Shown here in pieces: positions 19,772-27,478 of a stretch of 64,000 bases of DNA. The notes beneath the pieces are model-generated. The model had not been told where the DNA came from. It worked only from the letters and a program-made list of their open reading frames with translations, and searched no databases. This DNA comes from Thiohalophilus sp. (GTDB lineage: Bacteria > Pseudomonadota > Gammaproteobacteria > UBA6429 > Thiohalophilaceae), in NCBI RefSeq assembly GCF_034522235.1, contig NZ_JAXHLN010000003.1, positions 1,674,001 through 1,738,000 of the forward strand. Direction: 5' to 3'. The translations under genes were made by a program, and so were the position numbers. Position 1 is the first letter of the stretch. Each line of letters starts with the position of its first letter.

Positions 19772-20815
19772 TTAAGCCGCTTGCTGCACCCGCTCAGGGT
19801 TGAGGGCCGTCGGTCCTACCGCTACCCAGTTTCTCGTTCTGCCGGACCATCGCTGCGGGTTCCGCACCTTGGCCTGCTCGTAGATCCGATCACGCTGTTT
19901 CAGGATATCCCGGTCGTCGCCTCGATGCCGCTGCGCCGGCGTCACAAATTTCAGCGCACTGTGGCAGTGGCGGTTGTTGTACCAGTCGACAAATTTCAGC
20001 ATCCAGTCACGAGCCTCTTCCAGCGTGGCAAATCCCTGCGATGGCCAGGCCGGACAATACTTCAGTGTCCGAAACAGCGACTCGGAAAACGCATTGTCGT
20101 TGCTCACTCGCGGCCGACTGTATGACGGCGATATGCCCAGATCCGCCAGCTTGATCCGCAGCGTCTGCGATTTCATCGGGCTGCCGTTGTCCGCATGCAA
20201 GACCAGCGGTTGGCGAAAGCACCGCTCGGCCAGCACGCTGCGCTGCACCAGCGGTGCGGCCAACTCGCCGGCCTCTCGCTCGTGGACTTCCCAGCCGACG
20301 ATTTTGCGGCTGTAGATGTCCTCAATGAGGTACAGGTACCAAAACAGTCCACGCACCCGGCTGGGCATCCAGCTGATGTCCCACGACCACACCTGGTTCG
20401 GCCCGTCGGCCACATGCGTGGTCGGCGCCTTCGTTTTCTTCGGCGCCTGGGCCCGGCCCCGGTGATGCCGCTGGCCCGCCGCATGCAGTACCCGGTAGAA
20501 GCTCGACTCACAGGCGATATATTCACCCCGGTCCGCCAGCTTCGGCACGATCTGGCTCGGCGGCAGTGACGCAAACTCGGGTTCATTGCACACGGTCAGG
20601 ATACGCTCGCGCTCCTCGGGCGTGAGCTTGTTCGCCGGCTCGGGCCTGATAGCATCAGGCCGTCGGTCGGCATGAACTTCCCCACCCTGGGTCCATCGCT
20701 GCAGAGTGCGTACAGTGATGCCGATTTCCTTGCAGGCCCGCGCCTTGCGGGCTCCAGCGCTCACCGCCTCCTCAATATAACCCACCAGTTTGCGCCGCTC
20801 CGGGAGCGAGGTCAT
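19772..20815 (-). CDS. IS3-family transposase OrfB (DDE domain)
   Basis: A 347-residue protein with an N-terminal helix-turn-helix (ACKEIGITVRTLQRW) and an rve integrase core. The catalytic acids are visible in WSWDISWM, LHADNGSPM and SNDNAFSES, giving the D-D-E triad. In IS3 elements the active enzyme is usually an OrfAB fusion made by -1 frameshifting. Here the OrfB frame is reached by slipping at AAAAAAG (20848-20854). An ATG at 20815 also allows separate OrfB by ATGA coupling. All catalytic residues are present, so the element may still be active. Confidence 0.92.
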   Translation of the reverse strand: MTSLPERRKLVGYIEEAVSAGARKARACKEIGITVRTLQRWTQGGEVHADRRPDAIRPEPANKLTPEERERILTVCNEPEFASLPPSQIVPKLADRGEYIACESSFYRVLHAAGQRHHRGRAQAPKKTKAPTTHVADGPNQVWSWDISWMPSRVRGLFWYLYLIEDIYSRKIVGWEVHEREAGELAAPLVQRSVLAERCFRQPLVLHADNGSPMKSQTLRIKLADLGISPSYSRPRVSNDNAFSESLFRTLKYCPAWPSQGFATLEEARDWMLKFVDWYNNRHCHSALKFVTPAQRHRGDDRDILKQRDRIYEQAKVRNPQRWSGRTRNWVAVGPTALNPERVQQAA

Positions 20816-21309
20816 CCTTCCTCGTCGTCCCCCCAGAGGGCGTTCAACTTTTTTCGCAGGGCCAGCAGCGCGGCGGTCTCTGCCAGCGCCTTGTCCTTGC
20901 GCCGCAGTTCCCGCTCCAGCTCCTTGATACGCTTTTTATCCTCGCGGGCCTGGGCCTTCTCAGCCTGTCGCCGACTGGCCGCCTGGTCCGCTCCGGTCTC
21001 ACAGGCCGTGCGCCAGGCCTTCACCTGCTCGGGGTATAACCCCTTACCACGGCAATACTCACTCAGCTCCGCTTCACTCAGGCCGGCGGTCTCCACCACC
21101 ACCGCCAGCTTCGCTTCACCCGACCAGTCGTCGCTTTGTTTTCCGTTTCCCGGCACCGGGACCCCCTGTTCTCTGGCTTGTTTTCGCCAATTATACAGGG
21201 TCATTTCGCTGATCCCTTCCTCTCGAGCCACATCGGCTACACTTCGGTTTTGCGGGGGCAACAGCATGCACATCACGGCAGCCTTGCGTTCTTCTGAATA
21301 ACGGGGCAT
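20812..21309 (-). CDS. IS3-family transposase OrfA (helix-turn-helix)
   Basis: A 165-residue DNA-binding subunit starting MPRYSEERKAAVMCMLLPPQ. It has a helix-turn-helix around SVADVAREEGISEMTLYNWRK and a C-terminal leucine-zipper-like coiled coil (IKELERELRRKDKALAETAALL) used for multimerisation with OrfAB. The start at 21309 was preferred over an upstream in-frame extension that runs into the terminal repeat. It overlaps orfB by 4 bp. Confidence 0.9.
   Translation of the reverse strand: MPRYSEERKAAVMCMLLPPQNRSVADVAREEGISEMTLYNWRKQAREQGVPVPGNGKQSDDWSGEAKLAVVVETAGLSEAELSEYCRGKGLYPEQVKAWRTACETGADQAASRRQAEKAQAREDKKRIKELERELRRKDKALAETAALLALRKKLNALWGDDEEG
20848..20854 (-). promoter_or_regulatory. 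Programmed -1 frameshift site (A AAA AAG)
   Basis: On the minus strand the heptamer AAAAAAG falls in the orfA frame as cgA AAA AAG, the canonical slippery sequence. Slipping back one base leads without a stop into the orfB frame (KKVERPLGGRRGRMTSLPE), giving an OrfAB fusion. Confidence 0.8.
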
Positions 21310-21384
21310 TTCTCGTCGCTTTCCACCCCCTGTCTTGGTTACTTTCTGATTCAGAAGAGGCGACAACTATCCTGACACAGGGGG

Positions 21385-21669
21385 CGAATGACAAACCGGC
21401 ATGATCGGGACATTCTTTGCCCATCCTGCACCTGCTTCAAAATTTATCCATGGTTTTATAACTGATGCGGAGCTACAGAGTAGAATAAGAATTTTACTCT
21501 CTGAAAGTGCTTGGCTAATTTTATCCAGCCATTTGCTCCCGGCAGGGATGTCATCAGAGTCACTGCTTACAAAAACGCGCACACCACCACTAAACGTAGA
21601 TTCAATCCATTCTTTCAAAATCTTTGCCAAGGGCGCTTCACTAGATATGTGACTTATAAATATGTCCAT
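21385..21669 (-). pseudogene. N-terminal half of an IS-split TIR-domain gene
   Basis: The first 95 or so residues form a TIR domain: MDIFISHISSEAPLAKILKEW at the start (BB-loop region DSDDIPAGSKWLDKI), then ILLCSSASVIKPWINFEAGA with a candidate catalytic Glu, then PIMPVCHS where the IS interrupts. Reading on into the IS adds only PPVSG before a stop. Bacterial TIR proteins often consume NAD in anti-phage defence. The gene follows the two-TM gene by 66 bp and precedes the excisionase-like pair, suggesting a four-gene unit before the insertion. Confidence 0.8.
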
Positions 21670-22907: not shown

Positions 22908-22957
<50 letters not shown>

Positions 22958-22964
22958 CCCTGAA

Positions 22965-22991
22965 AACCTCGGCCGCTCCCGAGGTTTTTTT
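22965..22991 (+). terminator. Rho-independent terminator
   Basis: Stem AACCTCGG/CCGAGGTT with a short loop and a T-run, just after the distal att copy. It was probably the original tRNA-Gly terminator before the island separated them. Confidence 0.85.
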
Positions 22992-23030
22992 GTGTAAACC
23001 CCGGGCAGAGTCCGGTAAAATAACGAATAT

Positions 23031-23104
23031 GGCCGGGTGGCAGAGTGGCTATGCAGCGGATTGCAAATCCGTGTACCTCGGTTCGACTCCGGGCCCGGCC
23101 TCCA
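23031..23104 (+). tRNA. tRNA-Cys(GCA)
   Basis: A 74-nt tRNA with acceptor GGCCGGG/CCCGGCC, anticodon stem-loop GCGGATTGCAAATCCGT with anticodon GCA, T-loop TTCGACT and encoded CCA. tRNA-Gly followed by tRNA-Cys downstream of pgsA is a common order. Confidence 0.97.
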
Positions 23105-23200
23105 TCTTTATTTCCCGCCAATTTCCCGGTATTGTCCCGGCCACATCCCCCGCGCATTGCCAAATTTACAACGTCTAACACAACGGCCTGTTCATTGAAT

Positions 23201-24256
23201 ATGAGCAAACAGATTAATATCTCGTCGTTCAGTCTGAGCTATGATGCGCGCAAGTCCTGTCTCGAATTATTCGAATTAGCGGTTGAAGATAAAAAGCTTG
23301 CCGACATTCTGCAGCGCAATGTCATTCAGCCGAATGTCGATCGCATTGTGGATGAATTTTACGATTTCATGCTGTCGCATGACAGTTTTCGGCCTTACCT
23401 CAAGGATGACGCCCTGGTCGCGCGACTGAAGGAGTCTCAACGCAGTTATCTAGATACGCTTGGGGTTGATTTTGATACACCCGGTTACTTTGAAGACCGG
23501 ATACGCGTTGGCGTTATTCATAAGCAGGTTGGTCTGTCGACAACGTTATATCAAGGCGCTTATACCAAACTACTTGGGATCATTATCGATAAAATTCCGG
23601 CCGCTGAACATCTCGGCGCAAGCCGTCGTGAGATTGCGTCGTTTGCCCGGCGCATAACCGCATTGGACATGTCGCTTGCTGTTCACGCCTATCACGTCGA
23701 GCGTATCGAGGAGATGCAGGTTTCTCTCAACACCCTTCGCAAAGAAGGCGCCCAGCTGCGCGATCAAGTCGCCACAGATGAATTGACCGGCGTCCATACG
23801 CGTAACCACATAATGGAAATTTTCTCCGGGGCTATGCGGCAAGCCCGGACGCAAAAGACCGGATTGGGTCTGGCTATGGTGGATCTGGATCATTTTAAAA
23901 GCATCAATGATACTTACGGGCACCTGGTAGGTGACAAGGTATTAAAAGAGATAGCTGGAAAAATTCAGGCGCTACTGCGCGGTGACGATTTAGTGGGGCG
24001 CTATGGCGGCGAAGAATTCATGATAATTTTGAACAATACTGATTTGGCAGGTGCAACGATTATCATGGAGCGCGTCCGCTCGACTGTTGCCCACATGCTG
24101 ATCGAGGTCGATATTGACCAGCCGATTCGGGTCACGCTCAGCGCGGGCGTTACCACGCTGCGTGAGGATGACACTGAAGATTCATTCTTCCATCGCGCCG
24201 ATGAAGCGCTGTATGACGCCAAGCGGAGCGGACGTAACCGTATCGCCTCCCGATAG
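23201..24256 (+). CDS. Globin-coupled diguanylate cyclase
   Basis: A 351-residue oxygen-sensing cyclase that would make c-di-GMP. The N-terminal protoglobin-like domain (residues about 10-170) has VGVIHKQVGLSTTLYQGAY, where the His is the likely haem ligand. The GGDEF domain (about 190-350) has ATDELTGVHTRN, VDLDHFKSINDTYGH and the catalytic GGEEF. No RxxD inhibitory site is obvious just before GGEEF. The ATG at 23201 begins MSKQINISSF; an upstream in-frame extension would overlap tRNA-Cys and is rejected. It appears monocistronic. Confidence 0.92.
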   Translation: MSKQINISSFSLSYDARKSCLELFELAVEDKKLADILQRNVIQPNVDRIVDEFYDFMLSHDSFRPYLKDDALVARLKESQRSYLDTLGVDFDTPGYFEDRIRVGVIHKQVGLSTTLYQGAYTKLLGIIIDKIPAAEHLGASRREIASFARRITALDMSLAVHAYHVERIEEMQVSLNTLRKEGAQLRDQVATDELTGVHTRNHIMEIFSGAMRQARTQKTGLGLAMVDLDHFKSINDTYGHLVGDKVLKEIAGKIQALLRGDDLVGRYGGEEFMIILNNTDLAGATIIMERVRSTVAHMLIEVDIDQPIRVTLSAGVTTLREDDTEDSFFHRADEALYDAKRSGRNRIASR

Positions 24257-24431
24257 AAGCGGGCGTCTGTCGTAGATCGGGAATCTCTTCATAATCAACA
24301 AGATATATTCAGCATGGATGGAAGAGTTTTGCCCTGGCATCGATTATATATTCAAACCGACTGATATTTGTGTAAAATACCTGTAGTCACACCGTAGCCC
24401 GGGTGGCGAAATTGGTAGACGCAAGGGACTT

Positions 24432-24728
24432 AAATAATTGAGCATCCGGCTCGGAAACGGCCGGCGTGAATGGAGTCAAATTCGGGGGAACCTCAGCACG
24501 TGCAGGTGGTGGCAATCCCGAGCTAAGCCCGATTAAACAGTATCGAGTTACGAGTACCGAACGTTCGGAAATTCCCTCGTCACTCGTACCTCGTCACTCG
24601 TCACTATCTCGGGAAAGTGTAGAGACTTGACGGCTCCTGCCTACGTTCTACGAGTAGAATAGGGTAAAGATAAAGTCCAGACCACGAATGCATTTAAACA
24701 ATGCCGCAGTTAAAGCTGTAGTGGTATG
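24432..24728 (+). ncRNA. Group I intron (IC3-like) in tRNA-Leu
   Basis: A 297-nt intron starts AAATAATTGAGC and ends in G, like the cyanobacterial tRNA-Leu intron. Core elements in order: P, TTCGGGGGAACCT; Q, GGCAATCCCGAGCTAAGCC; R, GTGTAGAGACTTGACGG; S, AGGGTAAAGATAAAGTCC. The internal guide GAG can pair with CTT at the exon end, giving the required U-G at the 5' splice site. No homing endonuclease is encoded. Self-splicing is expected from the intact core. Confidence 0.92.
24543..24605 (+). repeat. Dispersed CTCGTCAC repeat inside the intron
   Basis: Between intron elements Q and R, where P6 lies, is about 60 bp of CTCGTCACTCGTACCTCGTCAC-like sequence. Similar strings occur at 12335-12370 and 54245-54400. 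It can fold on itself (TACGAGT with ACTCGTA), so it may simply extend P6. Confidence 0.6.
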
Positions 24729-24759
24729 AAAATCCCTCGGTCATTGCGACCGTGCCGGT

Positions 24760-24783
24760 TCGATTCCGGCCCCGGGCACCATT
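24760..24783 (+). repeat. att-like repeat, tRNA-Leu side
   Basis: The last 24 bases of the tRNA-Leu T-arm and acceptor region plus two flanking T recur at 27339-27362. Confidence 0.8.
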
Positions 24784-24851
24784 TATAGAAGTCGCTAGAC
24801 GATAGCTCAATCTGTTGAAACGGATTAACACTTTAGGGACGCATTAAAGAA

Positions 24852-25499
24852 ATGGCTTTTTCCGGTCGCCGCAGGCGCGTGCTGGGCTCAAGAAAAACTT
24901 TAGCTTTTCTGGTCGCTTCCGTTTTGTTGCTTACAAAGCCACTAGCTGCAACGGAGCCGGTCCGCTCGCTGTACGAGGCACGGACGCAACACGTCATCCT
25001 GCAACAGTGGGACCTGAGTTGTGGTGCTGCGGCGCTGGCCACGGTGCTGCGCTACCAACACAGCGAGCCGGTGACGGAGCGGTCCGTGGCGCTGGGCCTC
25101 ATCGACCGGGAAGAATACATCGAGAACCCACGGCTCGTGCGGCTCCGGCAGGGGTTCTCGTTGTTCGATATGAAGCAGTTTGTCGACGGCTTGGGTTACC
25201 AGGGAATCGGCCTGGGCCAGTTAACGTATACAGACTTGCTCGAACGCGCTCCGATCATCGTCCCGGTTGACCTGCGGGGCTATCCGCACTTCGTTGTGTT
25301 TCGCGGTGCGACCCAACAAACCGTTCTCGTGGCGGACCCGGCCTTCGGGAATCTCTCGGTCTCCCGGGAGAAGTTCATCGAGGCATGGATCGACTACCCT
25401 GAACTCGGACAGGTCGGTTTCATTGTGACGAAGGACGGGGACCCGGCGCCGCCGAACAGGTTGGCTGTTTATGCCACTGACTTTACCATCGTTCGCTAA
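24852..25499 (+). CDS. Periplasmic C39-family peptidase, FapD-like
   Basis: A 215-residue protein with an Arg-rich N-terminus and signal sequence (residues about 15-35, cleaved near LAATEP), then a C39 papain-like fold: catalytic Cys in QQWDLSCGAAALATVL near residue 57, His in YPHFVVFRG near 142, and Asp in VADPAFG near 156. C39 peptidases cut after double-glycine-type leaders. Unlike bacteriocin exporters, it has no ABC or membrane domain, as with FapD of the Fap amyloid system. Its last 26 codons overlap no other well-supported start. The neighbours support a secretion or maturation role. Confidence 0.82.
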   Translation: MAFSGRRRRVLGSRKTLAFLVASVLLLTKPLAATEPVRSLYEARTQHVILQQWDLSCGAAALATVLRYQHSEPVTERSVALGLIDREEYIENPRLVRLRQGFSLFDMKQFVDGLGYQGIGLGQLTYTDLLERAPIIVPVDLRGYPHFVVFRGATQQTVLVADPAFGNLSVSREKFIEAWIDYPELGQVGFIVTKDGDPAPPNRLAVYATDFTIVR

Positions 25500-25521
25500 C
25501 GTTCATCACCGGGGGCTACGG

Positions 25522-26682
25522 ATGACGCGCACTCTGACCGCCACCACAGCGGTGGCAGCCGTTCTCGCACTCAGCACCGACACCGCGCAGGCTCAACAGG
25601 AACCAACCGTAGAGCAGTTGCAGCAGAAGCTCGAACAGCGCGACAAGGTGATCATGGAGTTGCTGGAACGCGTAGAGCGGCTGGAACGCCGGGTTGGCGT
25701 AGACGGTACGCGCGAAACCATTAAGCGTGCCGAGCAGGCATCAGAGTCGCAGCAGGAAGCTAACAGCCAGCCGAAACCTGACACCGAGGCAGAGCAGACT
25801 ACCAGCAGTTCGGCCCCCGGCAAGGTGGTGGTAGAGGAAGGGGAAGCCGAACGCGCCCTTGAACGCTCGCTAACCAGTGAGGGTGCCCTTCTGTTGCGCG
25901 CAGGGCGCATGGAAGTGGAACCGAGCCTGACCTATACCCGCGATACCGATAACACACCGTCTCTGGCGACCGTCGGGGGTAACACCGCTGCTGTTCGACT
26001 CGAACGAAACTCAGACAGCCTGACCGTCGATCTAGCCATACGGCTGGGCTTGCCGTTCGACAGCCAATTGGAATTCGGTGTGCCGTACCGTTGGCGATCT
26101 GTCGAGCAAGTCACTTCGGTCGGGTTTTCGCCCGTTGCTACAAGCAGCGACAGTGCGTCAGCAGTCGGGGATTTTCGCATCGGCGTCGCCAAGACACTCC
26201 TGCGTGAAGGGTTGTGGCAGCCGGACCTCATTGGCCGGATAACCTGGGACACGGCGAGCGGCGATGACGCCGAGAATGGTGTTTCGCTCGGCGGCGGGTA
26301 TGACGAAGTTCGTGGCTCGCTCACCGCGGTGAAGCGTCAGGACCCTATCGCGTTCGTTACCGGGCTTAGCTACCAGCACGTCTTTGAGAATAACGACGTT
26401 CAGCCCGGGGCCAGCTACACGACCAGCCTGTCAGGTGTGGTAGCACTAAGTCCTGAAACCTCTGTGAGCCTTGGTGTATCCGGTGGTTACCAGGAAGAAT
26501 TCGAGATTGATGGCCAAGAGCGCGAGGGCAGCGACAGCGTGTTGGGGCGGTTGAACCTCGGGGCTTCAACGCTGCTGGCTCCGGGCGTGCTGTTCAATGT
26601 ATCCACCGGCATCGGGCTAACCGAAGACAGCGACGATTTCAGCGTAACCTTCTCGGTACCGATCCAGTTCGATGCGTTTTGA
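25522..26682 (+). CDS. FapF-like coiled-coil outer membrane beta-barrel protein
   Basis: A 386-residue exported protein with a signal peptide (residues 1-24, ending AQAQ). A predicted coiled coil follows (EQLQQKLEQRDKVIMELLERVERLE), then a low-complexity Ser/Gln/Glu linker, then GALLLRAGRMEVEPSLTYTR and alternating strands typical of a beta-barrel, ending in a C-terminal Phe (IQFDAF) as outer membrane proteins do. FapF, the Fap amyloid export pore, has the same layout of coiled coil plus barrel. The ATG at 25522 is chosen because the signal peptide starts there; a longer frame from 25471 overlaps the peptidase gene. Confidence 0.72.
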   Translation: MTRTLTATTAVAAVLALSTDTAQAQQEPTVEQLQQKLEQRDKVIMELLERVERLERRVGVDGTRETIKRAEQASESQQEANSQPKPDTEAEQTTSSSAPGKVVVEEGEAERALERSLTSEGALLLRAGRMEVEPSLTYTRDTDNTPSLATVGGNTAAVRLERNSDSLTVDLAIRLGLPFDSQLEFGVPYRWRSVEQVTSVGFSPVATSSDSASAVGDFRIGVAKTLLREGLWQPDLIGRITWDTASGDDAENGVSLGGGYDEVRGSLTAVKRQDPIAFVTGLSYQHVFENNDVQPGASYTTSLSGVVALSPETSVSLGVSGGYQEEFEIDGQEREGSDSVLGRLNLGASTLLAPGVLFNVSTGIGLTEDSDDFSVTFSVPIQFDAF

Positions 26683-26823
26683 GCGAAAACGCATAACGGA
26701 GTTTCGGTTAGTAAATGGTGAATATTGGTATATAATAAAACTATTATATTAGCGGCATTGTTAGACACGTGGCGAAAATGCATGTAGGTTTACGAACCAT
26801 CCATCAAAAAACGGAGACGATTT

Positions 26824-27105
26824 ATGAAGACTATAGTTGGCGCATTTGCGTTCTTGCTTATGGTACCTGCGGCGATGGCAGAAGAACCCATGCAGTTAGA
26901 TGACAACCAGATGGACAGGATCGTTGCGGGTAACGACCTGGGCACGGCACCGGACCAGATTGCGATCAATTTCCCGGATTCATTCTCCTCGGGTAAGGGG
27001 CCTTTGCAGGTCACTGGGGTCGAGATGGTAATGCCGGGCGATAACGTGTCCTCGGTTATTCTTAAGGCGAAAAAAGCGTTTCTTAAGGCGAAAAAAGCGT
27101 TCTAA
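26824..27105 (+). CDS. Small secreted protein with double-glycine-like motif, candidate substrate
   Basis: A 93-residue protein with a Sec signal peptide (residues 1-19, ending AMA), then MQLDDNQMDRIVAGNDLG, which resembles a double-glycine leader (LxxxxMDxIxAG) cut by C39 peptidases, here after residue 38. The rest is short and acidic to neutral and ends with two exact copies of LKAKKAF, encoded by a tandem 21-bp repeat. It lies 141 bp downstream of the FapF-like gene. I know of no family with this exact tail. A secreted peptide or surface polymer subunit is plausible. Confidence 0.65.
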   Translation: MKTIVGAFAFLLMVPAAMAEEPMQLDDNQMDRIVAGNDLGTAPDQIAINFPDSFSSGKGPLQVTGVEMVMPGDNVSSVILKAKKAFLKAKKAF

Positions 27106-27199: not shown

Positions 27200-27340
27200 G
27201 CGGGCCGTGCCGGCTGCGGCGTGCCGTCCCTGGTACGCCCCCTTCGGGCGCACTGAAGTGCGGCCAAATCCGTGTCGCTTCCGACATCCTGTCTCCCGCG
27301 ACATTAGTACATCCATGTACGTCATCCGGACGGATTTGTC
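27200..27340 (-). repeat. Hairpin array copy B
   Basis: Read on the minus strand from the tRNA-Leu 3' fragment: outer stem CAAATCCGT/ACGGATTTG, inner GTACATGGATGTAC (27307-27320) and GACAGGATGTC (27283-27293), then GCACT/AGTGC and GCCC/GGGGC and a final AGGGA hairpin. GAC/GTC here replaces GGC/GCC in copy A, a compensatory change. The loops carry A(N)GGA. Confidence 0.7.
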
Positions 27341-27362
27341 GATTCCGGCCCCGGGCACCATT
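27339..27362 (+). repeat. Distal copy of tRNA-Leu 3' end
   Basis: Identical to 24760-24783: T-loop end, acceptor strand, CCA and two T. It is preceded by the end of hairpin array B rather than by tRNA sequence. The following 27363-27478 has a TGTAGGAGCGGCTGCGCCGCG-type REP element and no gene. Confidence 0.8.
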
Positions 27363-27478
27363 AATCGCAATACCTCTTTCCACTGTAGGAGCGGCTGCGC
27401 CGCGAATGCCAAAACGAGAGATGATCGCAAGGAACACGATTATGCGATTACCGACTTCGTTCCTTCAAAAGGTTCCAT

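Follow-up and report, generated by a model that had tools for sequence, protein, structure and literature searches.

Within a 64,000-nucleotide stretch of a Thiohalophilus sp. contig (NZ_JAXHLN010000003.1; the whole stretch is called the window here), three adjacent genes at 24852 to 27105 encode a predicted exported C39 peptidase, a FapF-type outer membrane pore, and a small precursor protein. We consider it quite probable that this cassette came by horizontal transfer and represents a two-leader secretion route in minimal form. In the proposed route, the 93-residue precursor would cross the inner membrane by the Sec pathway, as its sequence suggests, and signal peptidase would then expose a second, periplasmic leader, EEPMQLDDNQMDRIVAG, which is double-glycine-like in sequence and conserved in the clade. 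The periplasmic C39 peptidase would bind this leader and cut after Ala-Gly, a step suggested by conservation, clade-specific dipeptides, and the fold. The 57-residue product would exit by way of the FapF-type pore; judging from homology to FapF, the coiled coil and plug helix of this pore would lie in the periplasm. Related clades may apply the same logic to other cargo: the Fap amyloid (FapD), Fil (FilB), and presumably Nap.

Three genes of the cassette

Three open reading frames (ORFs) on the plus strand were confirmed in both the ORF list and the sequence. Clade A, named in the list below, is the branch of C39 peptidases that contains the window protein.

24852-25499, plus strand: C39 peptidase, 215 residues, predicted to be exported (PF03412; best PDB match of the model, 6mpz; clade tree)
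25020-25022, 25287-25289, and 25335-25337, plus strand: predicted catalytic Cys57, His146, and Asp162, respectively, in the C39 gene
25522-26682, plus strand: FapF-type outer membrane pore with a signal, helix 29-73, a low-confidence linker, helix 106-119, and barrel 129-384 (AlphaFold2 model, Foldseek, and profile)
26824-27105, plus strand: small putative substrate precursor, 93 residues (leader conserved in clade A)
26824-26880, plus strand: predicted Sec signal, residues 1-19 (our own hydrophobic-core rule and an AMA-EE junction)
26881-26931, plus strand: predicted leader of the double-glycine type, residues 20-36, whose 17 residues close with Ala-Gly (residue tallies by position in 67 clade leaders)
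26932-27102, plus strand: predicted released protein, 57 residues, calculated pI 9.2 (from the sequence)

The original prediction, made from the DNA alone, had described an exported C39 peptidase with Cys-His-Asp, a barrel protein ending in Phe, and a small protein in which LDDNQMDRIVAG comes after a Sec-like signal. All three descriptions hold, as detailed below, and the export path put forward there is the one that the comparisons support.

The peptidase belongs to its own clade of C39 proteins

The peptidase matches the C39 domain PF03412 with an E value of 1.4e-11, above the Pfam cut-off. Across 24 clade A members, Gln51, Cys57, and His146 are invariant and Asp162 is at least 90% conserved, in keeping with the C39 family; we take these to be the oxyanion Gln and the Cys, His, and Asp of the C39 active site. 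A structural model of the protein (mean predicted local distance difference test [pLDDT] score, 81.5) matches double-glycine proteases. The best match is 6mpz (E 2.4e-6, and 1.2e-8 by sequence profile), a double-glycine protease solved with a leader peptide.

The best curated NCBIfam relatives are FilB (100.9 bits; cut-off, 475) and FapD (94.4 bits; cut-off, 330). The window protein is not a FilB ortholog; two Fil-like group peptidases (L142 and L016) score 278 and 311 on the same model, and the tree places the window protein outside that group. Nor is it a FapD ortholog, since it also falls outside the Fap-like group of the tree; the FapD cut-off is strict, as a peptidase encoded beside FapE (L101) scores 204 over the part scanned.

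To place the peptidase, we collected relatives from a contig collection with tblastn, used in place of an early C39 regular expression that missed 11 loci. At least 584 of 594 candidate stretches encode peptidase relatives, and the best 80 gave 79 loci. The resulting tree holds 110 sequences from 108 sources, and its groups are named from the tree together with the NCBIfam matches of sample members. The window peptidase and 25 others form clade A (26 rows), with a support of 86 in the Shimodaira-Hasegawa-like approximate likelihood ratio test (SH-aLRT). This value becomes 88 with a gonococcal row added and 83 with 16 further rows, none of which joins clade A. The other groups are B (34 rows, Fil-like and deltaproteobacterial; SH-aLRT 99), C (36 rows, Fap-like; 89), D (11 rows; 100 with the gonococcal row), and E (3 rows; 70).

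Clade A spans alpha-, beta-, and gammaproteobacteria and includes one distant Nitrospirota row. Its labels comprise Rhodospirillales, Minwuiaceae, Erythrobacteraceae, Oxalobacteraceae, Nitrosomonadaceae, Methylothermaceae, Methylococcaceae, Granulosicoccaceae, and Halieaceae. This range of labels suggests that clade A spread by transfer between lineages. When the genomes of the class were searched, 44 of 369 (counting the window's own) had a C39 match at E≤1e-10; the closest peptidases were 68% (G281), 56% (G171), 49% (G207), and 45% (G189) identical. Among 36 other genomes of the window's family, a C39 match was found only in G026 (E 1.4e-17) and, weakly, in G013 (2.4e-4).

Viral, phage, and plasmid collections were searched as well. 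IMG/VR yielded no relative with either the peptidase query or the peptidase alignment A3, and two Acinetobacter records in a phage collection match at 34.7% identity. All 29 matching plasmid records fall below 60% identity, the highest of the 20 listed being 47.6% over half of the query. On one of the plasmids, a 6.5-kb Acidithiobacillus replicon, the C39-type match extends across two overlapping annotated ORFs (L154:700-1411).

The second gene encodes a FapF-type pore

The pore protein has 386 residues, matches PF13557 (E 6.4e-9), and ends in Phe. We prefer the start at 25522, as an ORF beginning at 25471 would overlap the C39 gene. On the NCBIfam FapF model the window pore scores 61 bits, against an equivalog cut-off of 700. 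The FapF model NF058560 is matched by all 20 clade A pores compared, 10 of which also match FilC.

The AlphaFold2 model of a single chain (pLDDT 81.7) consists of helix 29-73, a low-confidence linker, helix 106-119, and the barrel. Its 18 top Foldseek matches are all FapF chains (5o67_A, E 3.9e-19; template modeling [TM] score, 0.81 by target), and FapF is the sole PDB match of the alignment profile at E≤0.01 (best, 1.1e-29). Helix 106-119 sits at the position of the FapF plug, which is 12 residues long according to a 2018 review (PMC6173800). The window pore is thus predicted to have the FapF barrel fold with its plug helix. That the barrel might be an unrelated porin had been raised along with the original prediction; the protein models as FapF by both the structural and the profile comparison.

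The small precursor carries a conserved second leader

The small protein reads MKTIVGAFAFLLMVPAAMA, then the leader EEPMQLDDNQMDRIVAG, and then 57 residues. The whole precursor has no family match in Pfam or NCBIfam apart from one chance-level NCBIfam match (E 0.16). Its product ends in LKAKKAF twice, encoded by an exact 21-nucleotide tandem repeat at 27059-27100; this duplication suggests recent growth of the LKAKKAF end.

Relatives of this leader were sought with a general pattern that fixes [LIMVF] at position -12, [LM] at -7, [VILMAT] at -4, [AG] at -2, and G at -1, with Sec signals judged by a crude hydrophobic-core rule of our own. In the 67 clade A leaders found, the fixed or partly fixed positions hold Leu at -12 in 63, Met (47) or Leu (20) at -7, Val or Ile at -4 in 64, and Ala rather than Gly at -2 in 63. 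Positions that the pattern leaves free are also conserved, with Gln or Glu at -8 in 57, Asp at -6 in 63, and Thr or Ser at -3 in 59. The fixed spacing is that of the canonical double-glycine leader consensus. The window precursor has the two-leader form, a Sec signal (by our own rule) followed by L-x4-[LM]-x2-[VI]-x-[AG]-G. In an alignment of 28 clade A proteins, Ala35 and Gly36 are the only invariant columns; these hits were chosen by hand with a pattern that required [AG]G. None of the 28 has a Pfam match at E≤0.01.

Peptidase, pore, and leader proteins occur together

We asked how often these genes are neighbors, searching for pores with a profile grown from the window pore as seed. Of the 26 clade A peptidases, 24 have a FapF-like gene no more than 4 kb away, and in 20 of these 24 it is directly downstream on the same strand. 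The pairing is common to all groups (B, 32/34; C, 31/36; D, 8/11; E, 3/3). Small Sec-like double-glycine-type leader ORFs, on the other hand, are special to clade A. With a strict pattern, such ORFs were found within 6 kb at 21 of 26 clade A loci (a count that omits L058 through an overlap filter), compared with 2 of 34 in B, 3 of 36 in C, 2 of 11 in D, and none of 3 in E.

The general pattern finds 67 ORFs at 22 of 26 clade A loci. In a control with 200 position-permuted motifs, clade A gave a mean of 3.7 ORFs at 3.4 loci and a maximum of 14 ORFs and 9 loci. Elsewhere the pattern finds 3 ORFs in B (control mean, 4.2), 17 in C (mean, 6.9; maximum, 17), 4 in D (mean, 1.4; maximum, 6), and none in E. 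Loci with peptidase, pore, and small protein together are found in alpha-, beta-, and gammaproteobacteria alike, and in the closest relative (L055) substrate, peptidase, and pore follow in that order on one strand.

Whole genomes give the same association. A leader model (A5) was built from 24 small proteins of contig-collection loci, none of them from L055 to L058 or the window. It matches 6 of 369 genomes at E≤1e-3: G000, G171, G189, G207, G281, and, marginally, G137. The first five also score best with the peptidase profile A3 (E 2.6e-101 to 7.9e-48, against 8.3e-42 for the next genome) and are the five that the tree puts in clade A; A3 was built with sequences from four of these five, A5 with none. 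A3 matches 34 more genomes at E≤1e-30, and A5 has no match in any of them. Of all 39 genomes at that threshold, 32 had their peptidases placed on the tree and 7 did not. The neighbors are therefore conserved together, a point that the original prediction had left to be checked: pores at 24 of 26 loci, leader proteins at 22 of 26, and co-occurrence of A5 matches and clade A peptidases across genomes.

LuxR-like proteins are encoded in the flanks of 7 of 26 clade A loci (for example, L075:4919-5629, L077:5747-6523, and L086:8437-9231), an observation for which we have no background rate.

The dipeptide before the predicted cut differs among peptidase clades

With the last two leader positions left free in the test pattern, AG makes up 61 of 114 matches and occurs at 21 of 26 loci in clade A, with one locus each in B and C. 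GQ makes up 28 of 82 matches, at 22 of 34 loci, in B; it is absent from A and C and occurs once in D. G[RK] makes up 24 of 96 matches, at 18 of 35 loci, in C; it is absent from A and occurs twice in B and once in D. Matches with other dipeptides (51, 47, and 60 in A, B, and C) are taken to be mostly background. The dipeptide before the predicted cut thus varies with the peptidase clade, being AG in clade A, GQ next to FilB-like peptidases, and G[RK] next to FapD-like ones, which fits the behavior of a cleavage site.

The proteins behind two of these dipeptides can be named. The GQ proteins scanned are FilA/DUF6160, three of three by family and two of two by the FilA model, with scores below its cut-off. 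FilA/DUF6160 proteins with a GQ leader lie beside FilB-like peptidases in Pseudomonas as well (L114:5281-5766 and L016:7512-8474). One G[RK] protein, that of L101, is FapE (NF058559, 124 bits; cut-off, 250), with the site LSDAELGQLRGR; it is the only one of the FapE-like leader proteins compared with that model. FapE or FapE-like proteins with an [IML]RG[RK] leader after the signal are found at L101:6753-7559, L120:1582-2376, L013:5330-6100, and other loci. Beside several Fap-like loci there is also a small VILWDE-motif protein whose leader is of this kind; the one scanned had no family match.

The [IML]RG[RK] leader in FapE is a candidate FapD cleavage site. Fap amyloid secretion needs FapD activity (PMC5557850). 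In the same paper, Rouse et al. describe the FapD target as unclear and suspect FapE, from whose first ~70 residues no peptides were recovered (PMC5557850). The 2018 review still gives the FapD substrate as undetermined (PMC6173800), and our literature search, mostly of open-access papers and without preprints, found no later paper naming it. The dipeptide rule makes this question testable by predicting a site in FapE. We have seen the FapE leader only outside Pseudomonas; NF058559 matched neither the five genomes behind the Pseudomonas loci nor 14 controls, so that comparison is uninformative.

The cassette lies at a tRNA-Leu gene

The left boundary of the cassette is the 3' end of a tRNA gene, and a direct repeat of that end, which the original prediction did not mention, lies beyond the third gene.

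24397-24781, plus strand: tRNA-Leu(UAA) gene with a group I intron, its 3' end forming the left cassette boundary (read by eye)
24760-24786, plus strand: left copy of a 27-nucleotide, att-like direct repeat of the tRNA 3' end (repeat search)
27339-27365, plus strand: right copy of this repeat, 26/27 identical (repeat search)

The intron matches Rfam RF00028 at 24421-24697 with 37.1 bits (E 7.1e-8), short of the gathering score of 50, and ARAGORN does not call the window's intron-bearing tRNA. The intron-bearing stretch is 92% identical in a genome of the same genus (G001). This relative has a single repeat copy and no C39 match. It shares the left neighbor (80% identity over 22908-24783) and the right-neighbor ATPase (83%), and two other reading frames lie between its tRNA and the ATPase in place of the cassette. 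The repeat and the site without the cassette, both characteristic of an island, fit an insertion at the tRNA 3' end, and we infer that the cassette was inserted there. Two observations speak against a simple att insertion: there is no integrase among the segment's three proteins, nor any other convincing gene in its ORF list, and a dispersed repeat of ~50 to 75 nucleotides (27267-27342) ends at the right copy. No tRNA was called by ARAGORN beside 23 other loci (22 of clade A and L019), a weak test, as the program also misses the window's own tRNA.

The dispersed repeat at 27267-27342 has many copies in G000 and several in G001. Another, of roughly 30 nucleotides, lies inside the intron at about 24572-24605 and is dispersed through both the window's genome and G001. 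Farther upstream, at 19772-21669, two overlapping transposase-like ORFs recognized by eye abut a short TIR-like frame that is apparently cut short.

The GC content is unremarkable (segment, 57.1%; window, 57.7%; small gene, 51.1%). Terminator-like sites number 5 in the cassette against 2.7 expected, and a promoter scan of the cassette found none. The ORF list of the 2.6-kb segment shows no further convincing gene; no search was aimed at immunity genes.

Weighing the two-leader route against alternatives

Several observations weigh against the two-leader route proposed here. Clade A branch supports are moderate (83 to 88). Two members (L082, Nitrosomonas, and L105, Nitrospirota) have a peptidase and pore with no recognizable leader protein in the flanks examined, and two more (L079 and L094, in both of which the peptidase sits at the end of a contig) have no pore or substrate there. 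The leader at L086 (LTASAMAKAKGG) is atypical and may be due to chance. Genome G137 has its marginal leader match (8.3e-4, in a 505-residue frame) without a C39 match at E≤1e-30, and one leader-like protein in G171 is ~2 Mb away from the cassette. Clade D (10 loci) lacks a clear dipeptide, L019 having two GG leaders and one AG. The pore barrel also resembles the COG4313 uptake channel 4rl8 (TM score, 0.75 by target), less closely than FapF. Finally, the mature parts of clade A substrates vary and give a common function no support.

Two other accounts of the locus itself fare much worse. The FapF-type pore and the 94-bit score on the FapD model could mean that the cassette is a remnant of a Fap amyloid operon without fapA, fapB, fapC, and fapE. 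We hold this to be very improbable, given that the tree does not place the peptidase in the Fap-like group (group supports, 89 and 88), that Fap subunit models match none of 28 small clade A proteins at E≤0.01, and that the same three-part set keeps recurring across three proteobacterial classes. Even less credible is a chance neighborhood, in which an ordinary exported protein with AG near its N terminus happens to lie beside an unrelated peptidase and porin: a 12-residue motif is short if no relatives are considered, but its conservation among leaders, the permutation control, and the genome-wide co-occurrence all contradict this explanation.

What the released protein does is a separate matter, and the likely choices are an extracellular surface or matrix protein and a bacteriocin- or signal-like peptide. 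The export mechanism would accommodate both roles. One tentative suggestion is that the products are small subunits of an extracellular matrix or amyloid-like subunits: the clade A mature parts have a median length of 67.5 residues (range, 41 to 155) and are rich in Ala, Ser, Gly, and Thr, and three Oxalobacteraceae loci (L080, L083, and L090) encode arrays of similar leader proteins with QxNxSPVTVxQ...SGN blocks that look curlin-like by eye. Such blocks are absent from the window product, however, and no amyloid family appears among the Pfam and NCBIfam matches of the 28 clade A proteins. A Nap-like bacteriocin or autolysis module, in which the cationic peptide would target the producing cell or its kin, seems rather unlikely to us. 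It would suit the pI of the window product, its lysine-rich terminal repeat, the island-like insertion, and the parts shared with the Neisseria nap island (PMC11798529), but on the tree the presumed NapP belongs to clade D, apart from the window peptidase, 41 of 64 clade A products have a calculated pI of 7.0 or lower, and the segment, where no search was aimed at immunity genes, shows no further convincing gene.

Under the two-leader reading, one odd cassette becomes a recognizable export route with many candidate substrates. We lean, with less assurance than for the cassette itself, toward a broader proteobacterial envelope route in which exported C39 peptidases read a clade-specific periplasmic leader (AG, GQ, or G[RK]) and the processed protein then moves on to a pore of the FapF type. 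This route would have Fap, Fil, and Nap as branches, the window would represent a separate small-protein branch, and the FapD substrate would be FapE, cut after [IML]RG[RKG]. It would provide a rule, stated in sequence terms, for the possible targets of exported C39 peptidases, and it points to compact parts with which small proteins might be secreted from Gram-negative hosts.

Comparison with known systems

One close described counterpart is the nap island of Neisseria, which encodes the C39 protein NapP, the FapF homologue NapF, and the cationic GG peptides NapA to NapC, which promote autolysis (PMC11798529). Like the window, it combines a C39 peptidase, a FapF-related channel, and GG-type small peptides on an acquired island of a few kilobases (PMC11798529). 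It also has napR, napI, and napH, none of which is among the window's three genes, where no search was aimed at them; the single putative substrate of the window bears an AG leader. A gonococcal standalone C39 protein, presumed to be NapP although its record carries no annotation at that place, is 30% identical to the window peptidase (E 2e-9) and joins clade D (SH-aLRT 100), which leaves the clade A window peptidase outside its lineage. Among the plasmid records is a 2.17-Mb Neisseria gonorrhoeae sequence (L170) that by its size is more likely a chromosome. A nap-like clade D locus also exists in the window's own family (L019:3912-6551). It has a pore, a C39 peptidase, and three Sec-like precursors whose leaders end in GG or AG; their predicted products of 8, 10, and 14 residues are pheromone-sized.

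The Fap system pairs the periplasmic C39 peptidase FapD with the coiled-coil FapF pore (PMC5557850), and the window shares both the periplasmic-type C39 protein and the pore fold. It differs from Fap in that its peptidase has its own clade and its leader ends in AG, not G[RK]. None of the three window proteins matches FapA, FapB, FapC, or FapE at E≤1, in agreement with the absence of a FapA/B/C amyloid gene noted in the original prediction. Fil (FilA, FilB, and FilC of NCBIfam) likewise has a C39 peptidase and a pore-like protein, and FilA-like proteins carry an equivalent leader ending in GQ. There the cargo is FilA/DUF6160 and the peptidases form a separate group (SH-aLRT 99), whereas the window cargo has no FilA match.

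The pairing of fapD- and fapF-type genes is already known. A 2013 study reported that FapD and FapF models match many non-Fap proteins (PMC3792158), and the 2018 review mentions co-localized fapD/fapF homologues in five more phyla (PMC6173800). The earlier suggestion of an undescribed export system therefore stands only in part: its components are those of the nap island and of known pairs, whereas clade A, the tandem Sec and AG leader, the small substrates, and a dipeptide code by clade were not found in the literature searched.

Bacteriocin ATP-binding cassette (ABC) exporters (PCAT and ComA) share with the window the peptidase fold and the leader spacing of Leu at -12, Leu or Met at -7, Val or Ile at -4, a small residue at -2, and Gly at -1. 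In those exporters the peptidase is cytosolic and part of the ABC transporter (PMC5557850). The window peptidase, in contrast, stands alone, and its precursor carries a Sec-like signal ahead of the leader.

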